From contig JAPLYR010000080.1 in NCBI GenBank assembly GCA_026395455.1, forward strand, positions 1-11,035: DNA of 11,035 bases. Direction: 5' to 3'. Positions 1-11,035 of this stretch are shown in pieces. This DNA is from Candidatus Roizmanbacteria bacterium. GTDB lineage: Bacteria > Patescibacteriota > Microgenomatia > UBA1406 > GWC2-37-13. The translations under genes were made by a program, and so were the position numbers. Numbering within the stretch: position 1 is the first letter of the stretch; every line of letters starts with the position of its first letter. The notes beneath the pieces are model-generated. The model saw only the letters and a program-made list of their open reading frames with translations, was not told the origin of the DNA and ran no database searches.

Positions 1-3000
1 GCTAATGGTACTGGTGCTGCCGGTGGTGGTGGAGCATATTCATTCTCTGTTCTTCCCGTTATGCCAGGAGAAACTATTACTGTAAGTGTTGGTGGAGGTG
101 GATCAACAGGTGCCTGTGGAGCTGGTACCGCAGGTGGAGTTGGAGGTAGTGGAGGGTATGGAACTGGAGGAAGAGGTGGTGCAGCGGGCTCAACTGGATC
201 CTCATGTAGTGGCGGTGGAGGTGGAGCTGGAAGTTTTGTATTAAGAGGTTCAACTGTTCTTCTTGCTGCTGCTGGTGGTGGAGGTGGAGCTGGAGCTGAA
301 GGCGGTTCAGCAGGACCTGGTGGTGGAGGCGGCGTAAATGGTGGAGCTGGAGCATATGGAGCAGGAGGAACAACAAATGCAAATCAAAGTGTTAATGGTG
401 CAGTGGGAGGAAGTGTCGGAGGTGGAGATGCGAGTGGTGGAGGTGGGGCGGGAGGTGGATATAATGGAGGAACAGGTGGTGCAGCGCCAAGCGGTGACAG
501 TTTAGGAGGTGGAGGTGGTGCTGGAGGAGCAAGTCTTGGTGTCGCAGTTTTAAATGGCTCCGGAACTACGCCAGGTAATTCTTCTGATGCGGATAGAGGC
601 ACAGCTGGGAATGGTGGAGCAATTTATGCAGCTGGAACTGCAGGAAAAGTAGTTATTAGTGCAGTTTCTCTCAAACCAAAACAGGGAAAAATGGGAAAAG
701 CCGGAACTTTTAATGGAACAAGTGATTATATTTCTGTTCCAGACAATTCCTCATTTGATTTGGGAACTGGAGATTTTAATATTTCGTTTTGGGCAAATCA
801 TAATTCTCTATCTACATATAATACTTATTTTGAAATGGGTCTATATACGGCTGGCATACTCATGAGACAAGATACTCCAACAACATTAAATATATATTTA
901 CAATATTTAACGTCAGCCGATGTTTATTCTTACTCTTTAGCTCCCCAATTAAATCAGTGGTATCACTTCTCTCTTAATCGCCAAGGCGGATATCTTAAGT
1001 TATATGTTAATGGTCAACAAATAGGAACGACTACAGCTTCAAGTCAAAATATACAAGTTTCCGGACCACTATACATTGGGCATTCTGCACATGCTGCAGC
1101 TACTCAGTATTTAAATGGTTCACTCGATGAATTTGTTATTAGTAATACTTACAGATCAGCAGATGATATTCGTCAGGCGTATGAAATTGGAACACGCACT
1201 CACAAAGTTACCATTGATTTTGGAGCCAAATTGGATGGTGGAAATCTTATCGCGAATAGCTCTGATAAATTGTTTACGGTTGATGCGACATATTACGGAT
1301 TAAATAGTAAAGGAAGTAATATCTATCTTGGAGATAAAATTATCGTTCGTGAAAGTTATGGTGGTGTTGAGTATATAGCGCAAGGGACTGTCAATTCAGT
1401 AGTCGAAAGCACTGGGGTTGTTACTGTTGCTGCATGGGATGGTGGGAGCACCTTCCCTATTGGAGGATTTACTGCTGATGCTTCTGTTTTTAAATGGCAA
1501 AAAGAATACTTTGATATTACCGGTTCACTTGGAACACAGAGAAGTGCTATAAGTCGCCTCTCATTGAGACCAACAAATGGAAACGAAGGACGAACAATTT
1601 GGCTTGACGATATTCGTTCATCAGGAAACTACCTCACAAGTCCAACTGGTAGTACTATTACTTCCAGTATTGGCAACCGTTATTTCCAATATAGGACTAT
1701 TTTATCTTCATTTGATTCAGCTGTTTCTGCAACTCTTTCGGCAGTAACAATTGATTATTCCTCAAATAATGCCCCCAACACACCTTCTCTTGACTTACCT
1801 GTTGATGCCTCCATTAATCAAAGTGTCACGCCCGTTTTTAAAACAACTACGACCGATTTTGAAACGAATTATATTCGCTATAAAATTTTGTTATGTACCA
1901 ATCTTGCCATGACCACTGATTGTCAAACGTTTGATCAAACATCCACTCAAACAGGTTGGACCGGACAAGATACACAAATGGGAACTGCATATGTAAGTGG
2001 AACACAGGCGACTTATACTATTGCTACGGAATTAAATCCGAGCACAACTTATTATTGGCGAAGTTATGCAATTGATCCTGCAGGAAGTGGAAATTGGAGT
2101 ACAACTCAAGCTGTCCCAAAATCTTTTACTACTACTTCTGCTCCTTCATCCCCTACTTCGCTTCAGGCTCAAGGTCTCACAAACCCTACAGTATCAACGC
2201 TTACTCCGTACTTCTCTGCACTTCATAATGATCCAGTTGGGAATGCTGCAAATAAATATCAAGTCCAAGTAAATACAAACAACACATTCACTGGAACGAC
2301 AATGTGGGACTCCGGTCAAGTAAGTATGGCAACTACTGCTAGTGGTGCGCGTATTCCTAATGTAACCTATGCAGGAACTTCTCTTGTGTTTAATGGAACC
2401 ACATATTATTGGCGAATTCGTCTTACCAACATTCTCAATGCTACAGGTACTTGGTCATCACCAGCATCTTTCAAGTTAAGTACTCCACCCAACACTCCTG
2501 TTCTTGATTTGCCAAGTAATACAGCTATAGACGTTACCGTTCAACCAATGTTGAGAATTACAGCAACTGATGTTGATTCCGATTATTTACAGTATAAAAT
2601 TCAAATTTGTACCAATCTAGCTATGACTTCAAATTGTCTTGTGTTTGATCAAACCTCATCTCAAACGGGTTGGTCCGGACAAGATGCACAAACAGGGACT
2701 GCATATGTAAGTGGAACACAGGCAAGCTTCACACCTTCCTCTCCACTCTCTATTGTTACCGCTTACTATTGGCGAAGTTATGCAATTGATCCGGGCGGAA
2801 GTAATGTGTGGAGTGGGACACAATCCAACATTTATTCGTTCACTACCACGAATGCTCCTCTGTACGGGACTGGTTGTGTTGTGAGAGAATCGAATAATGA
2901 TTCCTCCCTTCTTGTTCGTTGGAGTGATAATGCATTTGATGAAAATGGATATGAAGTCAGAAGAAGTGTTGATGGAGGAGCTTATGTAGAACTCGCAACA

Positions 3001-3177
3001 AACATTCCTCCCAATTCTACTTCTTATCAAGATATATCTATCACCACAGGACACACGTACTCATATCAAATTGCCCCCTATTTTACTGCAGGACCCACGT
3101 ATGGTACATGGTGCACCACAGTCCCATTATCCATTCAACGTGGCACCTTCACTATAAAGGGTGTTAAATTGAACTGA
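1..3177 (+). CDS. Giant glycine-rich / LamG-like / FN3-like surface protein (5' partial)
   Basis: The frame is open from base 1, so the true start lies upstream; the ATG at 61 is internal because Gly/Ala-rich coding sequence continues before it. Order of regions: a glycine-rich segment (about bases 1-640) with long runs of GG, GGG and GGA; a LamG/concanavalin-like beta-sandwich (about 700-1200) recognisable from FNGTSDYISV, WYHFSLNR, LYVNGQQIG and LDEFVIS; an unassigned beta-rich segment (about 1200-1760); two related Ig/FN3-like modules (1771-2146 and 2485-2860) with another module between them; and a C-terminal FN3-like domain (about 2870-3120). Such domains usually bind glycans or proteins outside the cell. 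A secreted or cell-surface adhesin role is inferred. No membrane anchor or sorting motif is visible at the C-terminus, which ends in a short beta-like tail. The pilin-like gene follows 73 bases later on the same strand. The exact ligand cannot be told. Confidence 0.85.
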   Translation, partial: ANGTGAAGGGGAYSFSVLPVMPGETITVSVGGGGSTGACGAGTAGGVGGSGGYGTGGRGGAAGSTGSSCSGGGGGAGSFVLRGSTVLLAAAGGGGGAGAEGGSAGPGGGGGVNGGAGAYGAGGTTNANQSVNGAVGGSVGGGDASGGGGAGGGYNGGTGGAAPSGDSLGGGGGAGGASLGVAVLNGSGTTPGNSSDADRGTAGNGGAIYAAGTAGKVVISAVSLKPKQGKMGKAGTFNGTSDYISVPDNSSFDLGTGDFNISFWANHNSLSTYNTYFEMGLYTAGILMRQDTPTTLNIYLQYLTSADVYSYSLAPQLNQWYHFSLNRQGGYLKLYVNGQQIGTTTASSQNIQVSGPLYIGHSAHAAATQYLNGSLDEFVISNTYRSADDIRQAYEIGTRTHKVTIDFGAKLDGGNLIANSSDKLFTVDATYYGLNSKGSNIYLGDKIIVRESYGGVEYIAQGTVNSVVESTGVVTVAAWDGGSTFPIGGFTADASVFKWQKEYFDITGSLGTQRSAISRLSLRPTNGNEGRTIWLDDIRSSGNYLTSPTGSTITSSIGNRYFQYRTILSSFDSAVSATLSAVTIDYSSNNAPNTPSLDLPVDASINQSVTPVFKTTTTDFETNYIRYKILLCTNLAMTTDCQTFDQTSTQTGWTGQDTQMGTAYVSGTQATYTIATELNPSTTYYWRSYAIDPAGSGNWSTTQAVPKSFTTTSAPSSPTSLQAQGLTNPTVSTLTPYFSALHNDPVGNAANKYQVQVNTNNTFTGTTMWDSGQVSMATTASGARIPNVTYAGTSLVFNGTTYYWRIRLTNILNATGTWSSPASFKLSTPPNTPVLDLPSNTAIDVTVQPMLRITATDVDSDYLQYKIQICTNLAMTSNCLVFDQTSSQTGWSGQDAQTGTAYVSGTQASFTPSSPLSIVTAYYWRSYAIDPGGSNVWSGTQSNIYSFTTTNAPLYGTGCVVRESNNDSSLLVRWSDNAFDENGYEVRRSVDGGAYVELATNIPPNSTSYQDISITTGHTYSYQIAPYFTAGPTYGTWCTTVPLSIQRGTFTIKGVKLN
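1771..2860 (+). repeat. Intragenic 714-bp-offset duplication of FN3-like modules
   Basis: Two modules of the surface protein, 1771-2146 and 2485-2860, align at a constant offset of 714 bases (238 codons). Both contain NTP-LDLP near the start, then CTNLAMT, a Q-T-GW-GQD stretch, GTAYVSGTQA and YYWRSYAIDP. Two 26-base blocks are identical: 1984-2009 with 2698-2723, and 2053-2078 with 2767-2792. The material between the modules (2147-2484) is a different FN3-like domain. The repeat unit is therefore a two-domain pair whose second half has diverged or was replaced. Confidence 0.85.
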
Positions 3178-4941: not shown

Positions 4942-6150
4942 TTATTTCGCCTCTGGGCTTGCAGTTGGGGGAAGGTTTATCTTTGGTTCAATTTGAGGTA
5001 CTCCTGTTGGTGACAAAGATAATGATTCCTTTTTCTGCGTTGCTTCAGTATTGTTTGTTTGTGTCGTTTGTGATTCTGTTGGGATCTTTTTCTTAAATTC
5101 TTCTAGATCTGCTACTGCCTTTTTATAATCAGCTGCATCTTTTGAAGGATTAAGAAGTGAAACGCACGCTTGCATGGCTGTTGCTGCTTTTGTATAGTCA
5201 CCCTTTTGATATTCTGCCCATGCATAGTTATATTCTGCATTTGGCCAATCTGGTTTCAGTGCAACTGCTTGTTCGAACAATCGTGATGCGTCATCGTACT
5301 GTTTATATCCATACAACACCCCTCCAAGACCTAAACGATAGGAAGGATTTTGTGGATCAAGAACAATTGCTCGTTGATATGCAGAAACTGTCCATGTGTC
5401 TGCTCCTTGGACAACTCCTGCAATACTTCTGTACACTGTTGCTAATAATTCCCAATTGGTTGCTTTATTTGGATTGAGTGATACAACGGCTTTTGCTTCA
5501 TCAATTGCGGCTTGTATAGCTTGACTTACTGTTTGTCTATCTGTCTCAGAAAGCTGTGGCTGCCCTTGTTCATTTTTTGTTGTTCGACCTGCTATTGTGT
5601 TTGCAATAAGTAAGTGTACTTGTGCAAAGTTTGTTCTCATTCGTTCGTTATATGGATTGTAAGAAACAGCAGTTCTCATTGTTTCGTACACACTCTTTAA
5701 GTTGTTGTTGGTTAATGACTTTTGGAACATGTATTCAGACATGTATAGTTTTCCCAGCATAAAACATCCACCACCAATGCCGACTAATCCCACCAGAATA
5801 ATAAGTGCATAGGCAGGAATAATTTCTCCAAAATCGATAGAGACTTCCTTATTTCTGTGGTGAGATTGTTCCATACCAATCCACACAAAGAGAAGAAAGA
5901 AGAGAAGGAATGAAGGTGGAGTCAATAAAAACGCTCCAACAAAATAAATAGAAACCAACTTTGCCATAACTGATCCTTCTGCTGAAAATGCTTTTTTGAC
6001 CAGTAATGAAAGAATGAGAAAGAGACTCCCAATTCCAAGCAATCCCATCTCAGTCATTATATGAAATGTCGCTGTTCGAGAGAGTGAAAATGTTGGAATC
6101 TGCCATAAAGGTGAATTGTTATAACTGAGGTCCTTCATTTTTACAAACAC
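4942..6150 (-). CDS. C-terminal part of O-antigen ligase-like protein with TPR domain (broken gene)
   Basis: The reading frame is open back to base 6192; the GTG at 6150 is only the first usable start codon. Codons upstream of it encode LTAFFGVGIDNFQS, which together with the following FVKMKDLSYNNSPLW resembles the conserved core of the O-antigen ligase/Wzy_C family, normally in the middle of the protein. Next come about three or four membrane segments, then a soluble TPR region with repeats recognisable from YQRAIVLDPQNPSYRLGLG and ASRLFEQAVALKPDWPNAEYNYA. The tail is low-complexity and Pro/Thr/Gln-rich. Family members ligate or polymerise glycans on lipid carriers at the outer membrane face. 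The N-terminal helices are encoded by the adjacent upstream frame (6856-6164). Without them this piece is unlikely to be a working ligase, though the TPR part could still fold. Confidence 0.8.
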   Translation of the reverse strand: MFVKMKDLSYNNSPLWQIPTFSLSRTATFHIMTEMGLLGIGSLFLILSLLVKKAFSAEGSVMAKLVSIYFVGAFLLTPPSFLLFFLLFVWIGMEQSHHRNKEVSIDFGEIIPAYALIILVGLVGIGGGCFMLGKLYMSEYMFQKSLTNNNLKSVYETMRTAVSYNPYNERMRTNFAQVHLLIANTIAGRTTKNEQGQPQLSETDRQTVSQAIQAAIDEAKAVVSLNPNKATNWELLATVYRSIAGVVQGADTWTVSAYQRAIVLDPQNPSYRLGLGGVLYGYKQYDDASRLFEQAVALKPDWPNAEYNYAWAEYQKGDYTKAATAMQACVSLLNPSKDAADYKKAVADLEEFKKKIPTESQTTQTNNTEATQKKESLSLSPTGVPQIEPKINLPPTASPEAK

Positions 6151-6163
6151 TGACTGAAAGTTA

Positions 6164-6856
6164 TCAATTCCTACTCCAAAAAATGCAGTAAGCTAATATT
6201 GAATTATTCTTTACGAGCGTAAATAATAAAACAATTGCAGTTAGTGTGGTCACCACGAATCCGACAAATGAAGCAATATTTTTTTCTGTATCATCATCCT
6301 TTTTTAATAAGTGACTAAGCGATATAACTGAGACTAAACCAAGGAAAATAAGAGCATCAATTAATGTTCCTGCGAGCGTTATGTTTTGAAACTTCTGCAA
6401 AGCACTTGGAAGCAGAGCTGTAAGAAATGGCACTGTCTCTACAAGGACAGTAATACTGAAAAGTACTGAGAAGGCTGCTAGAACAGTCCCTCCATGAGGA
6501 AGTTTTTTGTGTGATCGAGAGATATAGTAATAGATAATGAAAAGAAATACGAACATCAACAATCCAAACTGTGGATTAATGAGCGCCTGCACTTTGTTTG
6601 TAGAACCAAATAGCACTGAAAGAACTCCTGCAACAATAAATAGTGTAAATGGTGTGTCAAACTCTCTTTTTTTCCATGTTGCTTTTTTTGAAAGTAAAAA
6701 ATCACCCAACGAAGTAAGGAGAAGTAAAAGTGCAAAAAATCCAACTAAATACCATTTTGATGTGGTAAAAAAATCCTGTTGAAAAGGAAGAAAGAAAACC
6801 ACAACCAACAATGCAAATACAGAAAGAGCATAAGATCGGATGGTATTAAGAGACAT
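6164..6856 (-). CDS. N-terminal membrane part of O-antigen ligase-like protein (broken gene)
   Basis: This 230-residue frame is nearly all membrane helices: about seven hydrophobic segments near residues 8-25, 33-53, 68-84, 93-112, 124-150, 160-183 and 192-216. It begins MSLNTIRSY and has the charged, short loops expected of the N-terminal half of O-antigen ligase/TPR membrane proteins. After KNNSILA the frame runs into a few unrelated residues and stops at TGA (6166-6164). The family core continues in another frame of the same strand from 6192. The start is the ATG at 6856, with a TATATT -10-like hexamer just upstream. The glutamate dehydrogenase gene ends 82 bases upstream. Alone the fragment is probably non-functional. 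Confidence 0.75.
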   Translation of the reverse strand: MSLNTIRSYALSVFALLVVVFFLPFQQDFFTTSKWYLVGFFALLLLLTSLGDFLLSKKATWKKREFDTPFTLFIVAGVLSVLFGSTNKVQALINPQFGLLMFVFLFIIYYYISRSHKKLPHGGTVLAAFSVLFSITVLVETVPFLTALLPSALQKFQNITLAGTLIDALIFLGLVSVISLSHLLKKDDDTEKNIASFVGFVVTTLTAIVLLFTLVKNNSILAYCIFWSRN

Positions 6857-8250: not shown

Positions 8251-9234
8251 TTACTGACTCTCAATCCATCTTTCTGCATCAAGTGAGGCTTGGACTCCCA
8301 TCCCTGCCGCAGTTGATGCTTGCTTATATACGTGATCAACGCAGTCCCCCGCTCCAAACACCCCTGGGAGTGAAGTCATCGTTTGATAATGAACATCATA
8401 TGTGTGGGTTTTTGTCTGTTCTACTTTATTGCTCAATTGTTGCAATGCATACATTGCTGTTGTGAGAACATATCCTTTTTGGTCAAGATCAATCTGATTT
8501 TTAAAAAGATCAGTGTCTGGTCTATGCCCAATAGCTACAAATACCCCGTCAAGTTTTACTGTTTTTTCTCCTTCTGGAGTTTTTAATTTAAGACCCTCAA
8601 CTTTGAACTGACCTAAAACTTCTTCAACAGCAGCATTCCATATAACCTCTATTTTTTCATGTTCGAGTACTCGTTTTTGCATGATTTTTGATGCTCTAAA
8701 TTCTGCTCGTCTGTGAATAACATATACTTTTGAAGCAAATTTTGTTAAGGTGAGAGCTTCTTCTAACGCGCTATCTCCACCTCCAATAATGGCGACAGTT
8801 TTATTCTTAAAAAAGAATCCATCGCAGGTTGCACACGCAGATACTCCTTTTCCTCGTAGACGTGTTTCACTTTCAAGCCCCATCCAAAGCGCTTTTGCAC
8901 CAGTGGCAATAATAACTGCCTTTGTTTTATATTCTGTACCCCCACCAGCTAATGTAACTAATTTAACTGGTTTAACCAATTCAACTGACCCTACGTTTTC
9001 ATCAACAATAGTTGTTCCAAATGCGCTAGCCTGTTTTCGCATAACATCAATAAGCTCGCCGCCTAGTATTGATTTTTGTCCAGGGAAGTTTTCAACTTCA
9101 CTTGTGAGCATGAGTTGCCCTCCAGGAGGTGACCCTGCAAGAAGAATGGGTGAGAGTCCCGCTCTCCCTAAATATATAGCTGCAGAAAGTCCCGCTGCTC
9201 CCCCTCCGATAATAACTACATTGTGTGTATCCAT
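8251..9234 (-). CDS. trxB: Thioredoxin-disulfide reductase
   Basis: This 327-residue flavoprotein moves electrons from NADPH through FAD and a redox disulfide to thioredoxin. Motifs in order: FAD-binding VVIIGGGAAG (6-15), PPGGQL, redox centre CATC (134-137), NADPH-binding IIGGGDSALEEA (149-160), HRR (174-176, typical of NADPH preference), AIGHRPDT, and FAD-binding GVFGAGDC (291-298). It is slightly longer than the usual 310-320 residues. An extra stretch at about 258-283, rich in Gln, Lys and Thr, lies before the final FAD motif, which remains intact. The start is the ATG at 9234, 24 bases after the stop of the repressor gene. The pairing with a thiol-containing repressor suggests a redox-responsive operon. 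Confidence 0.95.
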   Translation of the reverse strand: MDTHNVVIIGGGAAGLSAAIYLGRAGLSPILLAGSPPGGQLMLTSEVENFPGQKSILGGELIDVMRKQASAFGTTIVDENVGSVELVKPVKLVTLAGGGTEYKTKAVIIATGAKALWMGLESETRLRGKGVSACATCDGFFFKNKTVAIIGGGDSALEEALTLTKFASKVYVIHRRAEFRASKIMQKRVLEHEKIEVIWNAAVEEVLGQFKVEGLKLKTPEGEKTVKLDGVFVAIGHRPDTDLFKNQIDLDQKGYVLTTAMYALQQLSNKVEQTKTHTYDVHYQTMTSLPGVFGAGDCVDHVYKQASTAAGMGVQASLDAERWIESQ

Positions 9235-9258
9235 GAATTTAATATTTATATTGATAAT

Positions 9259-9486
9259 TTATAAATTGATAGCACGCTCGATCATTCTACTAACCTTTTC
9301 AACATCTTTGTGAGGCAAATATTCACAAATATTGGAAACAACAATCTCCTTGGATAGTGCATCAATTGCCTTTTTAACCGCTGACACTTGTTGTAGTACA
9401 TCTCCACAATCTCTCTTCTCCTCAACCATCTTTTGAATGCCCTTTAGTTGTCCAATTACTCTACTGATTCTCTGTGATAGTTCCAT
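9259..9486 (-). CDS. CsoR/RcnR/FrmR (DUF156) family transcriptional repressor, atypical ligand set
   Basis: This 75-residue all-helical protein has the family pattern RISRVIGQLKGIQKMVEE, then RDCGDVLQQVSAVKKA. Family members are tetrameric repressors that leave DNA when they bind Cu(I), Ni/Co or formaldehyde, or are modified by persulfides. Cys27 matches the invariant first Cys. Counting from it, the usual second ligand at +25 (His in CsoR, RcnR and FrmR) is Asn52, and the usual +29 Cys/His is Tyr56. The only other cysteine is Cys54 at +27. A canonical Cu(I) site is therefore absent. A thiol, persulfide or electrophile signal is possible; this is inference. The gene is first in a unit with trxB and gdhA and has a strong promoter with an operator-like palindrome upstream, so it probably represses itself. 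The start is the ATG at 9486; no Shine-Dalgarno is seen. Confidence 0.88.
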   Translation of the reverse strand: MELSQRISRVIGQLKGIQKMVEEKRDCGDVLQQVSAVKKAIDALSKEIVVSNICEYLPHKDVEKVSRMIERAINL

Positions 9487-9515
9487 AGGTTAAGAAATAA
9501 ATAATAATAAATGAG

Positions 9516-9537
9516 TACTCCCTACTAGTACCCAGTA
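9516..9537 (-). promoter_or_regulatory. Candidate operator of the DUF156 repressor
   Basis: The minus strand reads, in order, TACT, GGG, TACTAGTA, GGG, AGTA. The outer TACT and AGTA are inverted copies, the central 8-mer is a perfect palindrome, and two G-tracts lie between them. G-tracts flanked by TACT/AGTA are the known layout of RcnR-type sites and are close to CsoR sites. The site shares four bases with the -10 hexamer and covers the expected transcription start, so binding would block transcription. Confidence 0.65.
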
Positions 9538-9563
9538 TAGTCTTTTACAAAATATTTTGTCAA
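9534..9563 (-). promoter_or_regulatory. Sigma-70-type promoter of the repressor-trxB-gdhA unit
   Basis: On the minus strand a perfect -35 TTGACA (9563-9558) is followed by an 18-bp spacer and TATACT (9539-9534). Transcription would start near 9527, giving a leader of about 40 bases before the ATG at 9486. This is the best promoter match in the window. Confidence 0.75.
9547..9560. promoter_or_regulatory. 14-bp perfect palindrome within the promoter spacer
   Basis: ACAAAATATTTTGT is a perfect palindrome lying between the -35 and -10 and sharing three bases with the -35. It could be a second regulator site or a chance AT-rich palindrome. Confidence 0.35.
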
Positions 9564-9677
9564 GGGATAAAAATGATAAAAGATATGCTGTGAAGGATGT
9601 CTTGCATATATCAACGTCGTTAATTGTAGTATTTCCCGCAACCCACCATTTTACACAAGTTATACACAAAGAGAAAA
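9564..9677. other. Intergenic stretch with paired DnaA-box-like sequences
   Basis: This is the first part of the 372-base gap between the repressor gene and the sugar transferase. No gene is seen. TTATACACA (9660-9668, plus strand) fits the DnaA box consensus TTATNCACA, and TTTTACACA (9650-9658) is one base off, ten bases away in the same direction. No dnaA, dnaN or other origin gene is present in the window. Confidence 0.3.
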
Positions 9678-9712
9678 CCCTAAACTTTAAACTCTAAATT
9701 CTAAACCGTAAA
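9678..9712. repeat. Heptamer array A (NNNTAAA x5)
   Basis: Five consecutive 7-base units end in TAAA in strict phase: ccctaaa, ctttaaa, ctctaaa, ttctaaa, ccgtaaa. Read on the minus strand the units are TTTAGNN-like. A second, shorter array at 10472-10499 has the same period and near-identical units. The 36 bases that follow, up to 9748, are AT-rich with nothing else recognisable. Confidence 0.75.
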
Positions 9713-9750
9713 TGAATGAGTAAATAATAAAATCCCTCTATCAAATTTAT

Positions 9751-9858
9751 GCAATTCGAAACAGCATGCTCAACACGTGACCTTTTTGCCAGTGAGATTT
9801 TAAGGTGGGTGGGAAAAACGAAGCAAAAGACGTCACTGTGAGCATGTGTGAGAATTGC
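9751..9858. repeat. Element A: 108-base imperfect inverted repeat abutting the sugar transferase stop
   Basis: GCAATTC (9751-9757) pairs with GAATTGC (9852-9858), CATGCTCA (9765-9772) with TGAGCATG (9839-9846), and GTGAC (9777-9781) with GTCAC (9832-9836). This gives about 20 bp of stem broken by small internal loops, with a roughly 50-base central part that includes GGTGGGTGGG (9804-9813). The right end touches the TAA of the sugar transferase (9859-9861). The left 20 bases match element B at 10583-10602 with two transitions. It could be a 3'-end RNA structure, a small non-autonomous element or a remnant of one. A 30-codon plus-strand frame (9749-9841) starting MQFETAC exists but has no clear support. 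Confidence 0.65.
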
Positions 9859-10449
9859 TTATCTATTAAATACCATTTTCCCAACCAAATAAGCAGTTTT
9901 TAATAGGATTAAAACGTCTTTTATTATTGACTTCTTCTTAGCATATTGACAATCTAACTCCATCCATTTCTTAAATGATAATAAGTGTGATCCTTGCACA
10001 ACCCATTCAGAAGTCATCCCAGGAAGCACCATAAAACGAGTTTGATATCGAGAAGGTATTTTATTTGCCTCTGAGCGGGGTAATGGTCGTGGACCTACAA
10101 ATGCCATTGAGCCTTCAATAATGTTCATCAATTGGGGTAATTCATCGATTGCAATGCGTGAAAGAATTTTTCCTACGCGGGTATATCGAGGATCATTTTT
10201 GATTTTAAATACTGGCCCATCAGCCTCATTTTTCTTTATATATCGCTTTTTAAGTGCCTCTGCGTTCCACACCATTGTTCGAATCTTATAGATCCAAAAC
10301 AGTTGTTTATTTTTCCCTACTCTCAATTGGAGAAAGAGAAAGGGACCAGGAGAATCAAGACGAACCACAATATAGAGTATTCCCAATAGAGGAAGCGATA
10401 AGATGAGGAAAATAAATGCGAATAATCGTTCTAATGCTCTATATACCAT
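9859..10449 (-). CDS. Bacterial sugar transferase (polyprenyl-phosphate phosphoglycosyl transferase)
   Basis: This 196-residue monotopic membrane enzyme transfers a sugar phosphate from a nucleotide sugar to polyprenyl phosphate, the first step of many surface glycan pathways. It has an N-terminal hydrophobic re-entrant helix (about 8-30), SPGPFLFLQLRVG (33-45), KIRTM (55-59), the catalytic Asp-Glu in IDELPQLMNI (Asp102-Glu103) and VGPRPLP (118-124). It is the minimal PglC-like form and lacks the extra N-terminal helices of WbaP-type proteins. The usual W-x-x-SGR segment reads WVVQGSH (149-155), an unusual variant. The ATG at 10449 is preferred over the in-frame TTG at 10467, which lies upstream of the -10-like TATACT. 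No glycosyltransferase neighbour is seen in the window, but the broken O-antigen ligase-like gene could belong to the same pathway. Confidence 0.92.
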   Translation of the reverse strand: MVYRALERLFAFIFLILSLPLLGILYIVVRLDSPGPFLFLQLRVGKNKQLFWIYKIRTMVWNAEALKKRYIKKNEADGPVFKIKNDPRYTRVGKILSRIAIDELPQLMNIIEGSMAFVGPRPLPRSEANKIPSRYQTRFMVLPGMTSEWVVQGSHLLSFKKWMELDCQYAKKKSIIKDVLILLKTAYLVGKMVFNR

Positions 10450-10457
10450 TGAGGGAT

Positions 10458-10463
10458 AGTATA
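10458..10463 (-). promoter_or_regulatory. -10 element of the sugar transferase gene, possibly leaderless
   Basis: The minus strand reads TATACT, then 8 bases, then the ATG at 10449. The expected -35 position falls in heptamer array B and has no good match to TTGACA. Confidence 0.45.
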
Positions 10464-10471
10464 ACAAAAAA

Positions 10472-10499
10472 CCTTAAATACTAAACTCTAAATCCTAAA
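10472..10499. repeat. Heptamer array B (NNNTAAA x4)
   Basis: Four phased 7-base units: ccttaaa, tactaaa, ctctaaa, tcctaaa. The third is identical to a unit of array A and the others differ by one or two bases. The array lies just upstream of the sugar transferase -10. The following stretch to 10581 is almost pure A/T with no recognisable gene. Confidence 0.7.
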
Positions 10500-10581
10500 C
10501 AAATCAATACAAAATTTTAAATTTTTAATCAATATCAAATATTAATTATTAAATTTATAAACTATAAAATAGGATTTAGGC

Positions 10582-10765
10582 GTGCAATTCGAAGCAGTAT
10601 GCCAGGCATGTGGATCTTCAAGCGGGAGAGGTAACTAACTAGAGGAACAGATGGCACGAGTAAAGGGTACCCAACAGCGCGCACAAAACTCCAGCCAGCA
10701 GGCATTGGAGGTTTTGGAGCACTGGTGGGGGAAATTACGAGTGACAGAATCTGGAAAATCAACTC
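10582..10765. other. Element B: GC-richer non-genic block downstream of rho, related to element A
   Basis: This block is clearly richer in G and C than the AT-rich sequence beside it and ends at the rho stop codon. Its first 20 bases (from 10583) match element A with two transitions, and similarity continues weakly through CAYGTG. A second similar patch is TGGTGGGGGAAATTACGA (10723-10740) beside the GGTGGGTGGG region of element A. It contains GGGTACCC, GCGCGC and a stable hairpin at 10684-10716. On the plus strand one frame runs from GTG 10582 to TGA 10806 with a single TAA at 10636; an ATG at 10651 has AGAGGA four bases upstream and would give a 51-residue product overlapping rho. I do not recognise this product. 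Confidence 0.5.
10684..10716 (-). terminator. Hairpin 50 bases downstream of rho, possible terminator or RNA structure
   Basis: CAAAAC and TCCA pair with TGGA and GTTTTG around one bulged G, and the loop adds an inner GCC/GGC stem, for about 13 bp in all. On the minus strand the 3' arm ends in TTTTG, a short U-run inside the stem and not a clean U-tract after it. Termination is therefore only one possibility. Confidence 0.4.
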
Positions 10766-11035
10766 TTACCCTTTTAGACTTCCCAAGAACTCTTCATTTG
10801 TCTTGACCTTTGTCAACTTATCGATCATGGCGGTCAATCTTTCCTCTGGGGTAAGAAGTGACAACATGCGGCGTAAAGTTGTTATTTTCTTCAATTGGTC
10901 AGCACTAAAGAGTAATTCTTCGTGTCGAGTTCCTGATTTTTCAATATCAAGAGCTGGGTAAAGTCGTTTATCTGCAAATCCTCGATCAAGGTGAACTTCC
11001 ATGTTGCCAGTTCCTTTGAACTCCTCATAGATAAG
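10766..11035 (-). CDS. rho: Transcription termination factor Rho, C-terminal part (5' partial)
   Basis: The frame enters from the right edge of the window and ends at TAA 10768-10766, so about 89 C-terminal residues are visible. They match the end of the Rho ATPase domain: YEEFKGTGNMEVHLDR, then DKRLYPALDIEKSGTR, then EELLFSADQL, and the last helix ending KVKTNEEFLGSLKG. The Arg in SGTR corresponds to the ATPase arginine finger (Arg366 in E. coli), and the Arg in DKRLYP to E. coli Arg353. Rho is a hexameric RNA helicase that ends transcription of untranslated RNA. The N-terminal RNA-binding domain and Walker motifs lie outside the window. The ATG at 11002 is an internal Met, not the start. 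Confidence 0.95.
   Translation of the reverse strand, partial: LIYEEFKGTGNMEVHLDRGFADKRLYPALDIEKSGTRHEELLFSADQLKKITTLRRMLSLLTPEERLTAMIDKLTKVKTNEEFLGSLKG

Follow-up and report, generated by a model that had tools for sequence, protein, structure and literature searches.

The window, by which we mean the whole stretch of 11,035 nucleotides analysed here, is contig C28 of a draft genome (G000) of 976,606 bases in 151 contigs, which is 84.75% complete; its relatives include a sister genome (G002) and a 99% complete genome of the same genus (G001). Two intergenic gaps at one end of the window are flanked by three minus-strand genes: a CsoR/RcnR-like metal-sensing repressor gene (9259-9486; NCBIfam RcnR 4.2e-12, FrmR 1.7e-10 and RicR 2.3e-10, all below cut-off), a sugar-phosphate transferase gene (9859-10467; TIGR03025, 4.3e-60, under the curated cut-off) and the 3' part of rho (10766-11035; TIGR00767, 2.7e-31 over 89 aa inside the window). 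A tRNA/tmRNA search found none. Rfam covariance models gave no match on the window at gathering score, and the three matches at E-values up to 5 were at chance level, none of them overlapping the hairpin described below. Elsewhere in the window, two adjacent minus-strand ORFs (6164-6856 and 4942-6150) seem, on inspection by eye, to be parts of a single membrane-protein-plus-TPR gene interrupted between them (4942-6856), and positions 1-3177 hold a large, open-ended glycine-rich ORF with duplicated coding repeats of 173 and 98 bases, perhaps encoding a surface protein.

In each gap the original prediction had seen phased NNNTAAA heptamers, an AT-rich spacer and an element with a 19-base head running to the stop codon of the next gene, and it had joined them into one duplicated module. 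The arrays, at 9678-9712 and 10472-10499, are real and beyond chance: exact matches to TAAA(N3TAAA)x3 lie at 9681-9712 (two, overlapping) and 10475-10499, three in the window compared with a mean of 0.00 over 200 dinucleotide shuffles. So are the heads, matched with no mismatch at 9751-9769 and 10584-10602 and differing, as claimed, by two transitions; allowing up to three mismatches brings no third site in the window (shuffle mean 0.01). The joining of these parts did not hold. The AT-rich stretch leading from the first array to its head (9713-9750, plus strand) is unlike the other spacer, with a local score of 11.0 compared with a shuffled mean of 11.2 (p=0.65), that is, no similarity beyond shuffles, and an exact three-unit array lies within 200 bp of one of the 19 complete copies of the head-bearing element in this genome, namely the window's. 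Array, spacer and head are therefore not a unit; the arrays (family H) and the head-bearing element (family E) belong to separate families.

The claim about the stop codon is right for the first element, at 9751-9858, where the transferase ORF ends at 9859, whereas at 10584 what it describes is a composite. There a left-end fragment of E of about 48 nt (10584-10631, plus strand), recognised by local alignment to complete E and missed by our covariance model R1, meets a third repeat, C (10629-10764), a reverse-complement match to the region beside E on contig C80 (L018). The same intergenic regions also contain two more dispersed repeats, D (around CGTTTATTATYATTTT) and F (around AATTCGAGYGCTCAAACAGG). 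Within 200 bp of the 37 E copies of G000 and G002 we counted D 10, C 8, H 3 and F 3 times, compared with D 1, C 4, H 5 and F 4 in 135 distant 400-bp windows, which partly overlap one another. H, at 3/37 and 5/135, is not clearly commoner near E than far from it, and the two families would meet in the window because repeats of this kind cluster at shared intergenic positions.

The hairpin family E

Dispersal of the head through the genome was borne out by 20 head-like sites (up to three mismatches), with none for the reversed control. Reading them out gave 18 E elements, 17 complete and the one truncated at 10584, and two unrelated sites (C42, C51); all 17 complete heads have their own end about 110 bp downstream. 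The window copy (9751-9858, plus strand) is a complete imperfect hairpin of 108 bp, with a predicted fold of -36.4 kcal/mol and 126.7 bits under R1, which was built from 17 complete copies, this one among them. A scan of 57 genomes with R1 yielded 19 complete copies in G000 and 18 in G002; the remaining 55 genomes, G001 with its 99% completeness among them, gave none under the stricter filters that apply to scans of more than 40 genomes, at the cost of some weak matches. Further copies and conservation in relatives had been named as the points on which the prediction would turn; the copies exist, and conservation extends to one relative only. An exact 18-base E pattern, by itself, matched 17 stretches in a genome contig collection, seven from one Roizmanbacteria MAG and ten from other bacteria, and one exact-pattern scan of viral contigs found none.

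Copies are 107-112 bp long with paired ends, and their individual folding energies range from -28.7 to -42.5 kcal/mol. The results show that the arms covary. Among 36 of the 37 copies, aligned with MAFFT (L118 was left out, its E being identical to that of L115), 19 of 27 pairs carry changes on both sides compared with 6.5 in shuffles, double-change cells number 78 compared with 19.8, and 96.1% of cells are paired compared with 89.0%; in the rows of L115, L126 and L163 the 5' end is visibly out of alignment. Slid versions of the structure reach at most five double-change pairs, a comparison that favours the true register because the structure was derived from the same sequences. The number of further pair types is not unusual (33 vs 30.3; 41/500 shuffles). 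The two outermost base pairs vary yet remain complementary (31/36 at each end position), and pairing extends to the first base flanking E in 25/36 compared with a shuffle mean of 17.5, a figure that orthologous rows inflate and for which one of the 37 copies has no flank. The apical sequence is conserved. By eye, the flanks carry no consistent direct repeat that would mark a target-site duplication; the outer bases pair instead.

REP/REPIN sequences associated with RAYT are likewise intergenic palindromic repeats. E differs from them in that no Y1 transposase was found in G000 (84.75% complete) or G001 and that of G002 sits among other palindromes, and a REP/RAYT identity for E was therefore ruled out. 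The G002 gene (L164, G002:C90:4281-4517) has a palindrome around TTAACTGACGCAGTTAA on each side (at L164:1274 and 2066, alike, not identical) and likely forms with these a RAYT/REP pair unrelated to E; R1 has no match in its 3.2-kb locus. Copying of E by a resident reverse transcriptase was also rejected, as PF00078 has no match in G000 (84.75%) or G001 (99%); G002 has one, barely over the cut-off. Two other identities were dismissed as well, a known RNA family on the absence of Rfam matches and an intrinsic terminator on the absence of any terminator-like call at E within 9200-11035.

By its sequence, E appears MITE-like, being short and multicopy with terminal inverted repeats, and it is ordinary in kind, a lineage-limited hairpin repeat. 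Its length falls in the 50-500 bp range that the review PMC10969869 gives for MITEs and ERIC-like repeats, and it shares with them inverted ends, a location at AT-rich intergenic sites, hairpin formation and many copies per genome. Unlike the MITEs of that review, E has no visible target-site duplication and no parent transposase was found for it in the search for Y1.

Comparison with the sister genome gave eight matched pairs of E sites, with identities of 98.1, 86.2, 98.1, 100, 91.8, 98.2, 71.7 and 85.6%. Four of the eight pairs are thus 98-100% identical, while the surrounding aligned stretches show a divergence of about 6-18%; long aligned stretches around E loci range from about 75 to 94% identity between the two genomes. 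The window copy matches its G002 counterpart at 106/108 positions, in a stretch with the transferase and rho genes that is 89.6% identical. Other matched G002 sites hold a different E subtype, an E in opposite orientation or other repeats, and the own copies at L110, L119, L121, L123, L129, L131 and L017 have no aligned counterpart in the G002 loci compared. At the two E copies on C121 the G002 contigs end; G001 is without E at both matched sites, but its divergence prevents the edges from being placed. The comparisons revealed no exact empty site for E.

A separate observation concerns the drafts themselves: L023:3275-3979 and L067:1-705 are 100% identical over 705 bases next to an N run, while identity nearby is about 83%. 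The drafts may therefore share strain-mixed pieces, and we do not rely on the conservation of E. Unless they do share mixed strains, E is more conserved at four of the eight site pairs than a passive relic should be.

The heptamer family H and its gene-bearing form

The first H copy of the window (9675-9712, plus strand), identified by its pattern matches and present in G002 as well, is a single heptamer arm whose inverted partner was not found. The second (10468-10579, plus strand) is a decayed copy, recognised by its array pattern, with a 5' array at 10472-10499, an AT-rich core and a 3' remnant, AGGATTTAG at 10571-10579, read by eye. In the genome, the heptamer pattern with up to one mismatch has 78 matches compared with 53 for the reversed control, which is not independent because TAAAT units fit both patterns. 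The layout is more telling than the count: short copies consist of a plus array followed, about 35-90 bp on, by a minus array, and most of the heptamer arrays are arms of inverted-repeat elements. Reading gave 13 short two-armed copies, two with a gene and five single-armed, the latter being the two window copies (in the second, 9 bases of the other arm survive), C104:3889 and two pieces in a kinase gene; four matches with one mismatch (C21, C61, C96, C143) do not resemble arrays and were left out.

The gene in the longer form is that of the 23S rRNA intervening-sequence protein (IVP, PF05635). Both PF05635 matches in the draft, C37:8712-9176 and C44:19009-19490, lie between inverted arrays, and Rfam, rRNA models included, has no match at gathering score in the 3.2 kb around each (L055 and L056; 6441 bases). 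The C37 protein exceeds the cut-offs of PF05635 (52.3 bits vs 33.8) and TIGR02436 (70.5 vs 24) and matches PDB 2rld (E 3.9e-15), with no match to any known transposase. H is thus more unusual than E, having a gene-bearing form without a recognisable transposase.

We searched for remnants of the IVP gene start in 14 short copies (the 13 two-armed ones and C104) and in the two window copies. Five of the 14 (L029, L032, L042, L048, L054) have one at p<=0.003; in three it is marginal (p 0.013-0.027), with the best match in array-like or AT-rich sequence, and in six it does not go beyond shuffles. In the window, 9661-9752 gives no match (p=0.99) and the core of 10468-10579 a weak one (7 mismatches of 23, p=0.077). 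It therefore seems that one dispersed family includes reduced copies of a small element carrying the IVP gene; from sequence comparison, a deletion-derivative origin looks good for part of the family, and for the window copies the arrays alone would point to it.

Two H copies are absent from the sister genome: at C116:2157-2279, G000 has 135 bases between matched flanks and G002 has 15, and at C37:3646-3788 the numbers are 202 and 9. At C37:1414 and 7286 G002 holds other AT-rich sequence, and at C104:3889 its array is shorter. Both genomes contain the window copies and the C37 IVP element. The latter is identical at 477/480 positions (its ORF at 377/378) and its near flanks at 88/90 and 65/70, with 379/507 over 500 bases of the next gene and 126/140 over a kinase stretch; this near-identity may reflect recent exchange or strain mixing.

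Beside the C37 IVP element lies a PfkB-family kinase ORF (L036:232-1362, G000:C37:7443-8573, minus strand), whose frame is open over 377 residues in G000 and contains two in-frame H pieces; a third stretch, STEVEKSQRLRSLDS, is present in G000 and missing from relatives. The G002 kinase has a different repeat (LDSRLRGND peptide) at both H-piece places, the second beside an H remnant. In an alignment that left out G009, also a match, the kinases of G021, G012 and G011 are without these inserts, and at the second place that of G008 carries an insert of dissimilar sequence.

Flanks of IVP genes in the family and the phylum

In a survey of IVP loci, 36 of 60 given loci matched the query and 32 of these, all of the same family, had full flanks, with one gene included twice (L074/L167) and one orthologous pair (L036/L166). 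The lag-7 excess over shuffles at these 32 loci was 0.106 upstream and 0.093 downstream compared with 0.007 in control segments, with further autocorrelation peaks at lags 14 and 21. Upstream flanks aligned to reverse-complemented downstream flanks with a score of 23.7, compared with 13.9 for mismatched loci and 11.1 for shuffled sequence.

PF05635 at E<=1e-10 occurs in 178 of 379 genomes of the phylum. From these we took 30 loci in 30 genomes, which are among the best-scoring, and found a lag-7 excess of 0.064 and 0.057 and an inverted score of 16.5 compared with 9.1; 21 of the 30 lie above the 95th percentile of mismatched pairs. Compared with 42 flanks of neighbouring genes, the difference is significant (p=2e-5), but taken one at a time only 14 of the 30 loci rise above the 95% level of those flanks on one side or both, and four on both. 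On average, IVP genes of these 30 genomes have inverted flanks of period 7. The heptamer unit varies by lineage while the period stays 7.

Origin of the two families

Based on these results, we propose that the two gaps hold two unrelated, dispersed, palindromic MITE-like families that share intergenic sites, H being related to an IVP element outside rRNA, and we give this reading a probability of about 0.7. E would have spread, probably as a MITE-like non-autonomous element moved in trans by some enzyme, in one branch of the genus, and selection, or copying through a folded strand, would keep its arms complementary. The parent of H would be a heptamer array, a four-helix-bundle gene (PF05635) and an inverted heptamer array, from which short copies would have arisen by loss of most of the IVP gene, the protein or the arrays presumably mattering for the family. 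The window copies would share this gene-bearing origin despite little or no trace of the gene; our confidence is slightly reduced because a clear remnant of the gene is missing from these and from many of the short copies. The original suggestion of a small mobile element is compatible with the data, from which we infer present or past movement of both families as elements.

Three other explanations were weighed against this one. E might instead be a functional, structured multicopy RNA, such as an mRNA 3'-end or RNase III processing hairpin, with the H arrays a separate matter. Covariation, the conserved apical sequence, the 98-100% identity at four of eight site pairs and the closeness of 7/19 own copies to the 3' end of a mechanically called ORF (within 20 bp) all speak for it. 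We nevertheless hold it to be fairly unlikely: E has no Rfam match and no terminator-like call in the window, was found in only two of the 57 genomes under the stricter filters, lies between divergent ORFs in 3/19 own copies (4/19 overlap an ORF, not necessarily a real gene), and can be replaced at matched G002 sites by another subtype or other repeats.

An immobile H, in which IVP would be a normal gene of the host, its heptamer arrays would serve regulation and the short copies would be independent decayed duplicates or slippage products, we regard as unlikely. It would fit a protein that resembles no known transposase, the difference in array length at C104 and the existence of single-armed copies such as those of the window, but it leaves unexplained the two-armed copies missing at two matched G002 sites, the in-frame kinase pieces absent from the aligned G021, G012 and G011 and the phylum-wide recurrence of inverted period-7 flanks with different unit sequences. 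A single duplicated module of array, spacer and head is highly improbable; the same order does occur twice within 1 kb and both are kept in G002, but the spacers are dissimilar, the second element is truncated, and the rarity of H near complete E copies tells against it.

Our reading of H as related to an IVP element can be set beside several known systems. In Coxiella burnetii, according to PMC4990558, tandem heptameric repeats precede the S23p gene of the 23S rRNA intervening sequence (IVS), an insertion with inverted ends that RNase III cuts; the same paper cites the old suggestion, from rRNA insertions, that IVSs are transposition remnants or mobile elements. The H element resembles the IVS described there in its PF05635-type gene, inverted stem-forming ends and heptamers directly before the start codon, and differs from it in having no rRNA match within 3.2 kb around either gene, arrays on both sides of the gene and dispersed gene-less copies. 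Unlike MITEs as PMC10969869 outlines them, the gene-bearing form encodes a four-helix-bundle protein and not a known transposase. The in-frame pieces in a metabolic gene recall the Rickettsia palindromic elements by their description in that paper, with the difference that here one gene is concerned and the pieces are half-elements, not whole ones. PMC10053308 mentions a resemblance of PF05635 to Avd, a protein of diversity-generating retroelements. For CPR bacteria, PMC11270868 records IVP genes inside rRNA insertions and describes the IVP/S23p family as functionally uncharacterised; H shares with these genes the protein family and the bacterial group. That paper concerns rRNA insertions, and its main text does not contain the terms 'inverted repeat', 'heptamer' or 'intergenic'. 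Among the literature matches listed, none reports dispersed heptamer-flanked IVP elements or a gene-less H family outside rRNA.

More broadly, and tentatively, since we think it doubtful as a general statement, the IVP genes of Patescibacteria, encoding a four-helix-bundle protein and set between inverted, lineage-specific heptamer arrays, could be the core of a transposase-free class of mobile elements, which would move outside rRNA, shed gene-less copies and seed in-frame peptide insertions, with the rRNA IVS as one special landing site. E, for its part, is a covarying family of hairpins that has so far turned up in a single branch of one genus. If true, IVP elements outside rRNA, together with gene-less relatives and empty sister sites, would make the old suggestion of mobility directly testable and would account for the period-7 arrays in the intergenic DNA of these bacteria.
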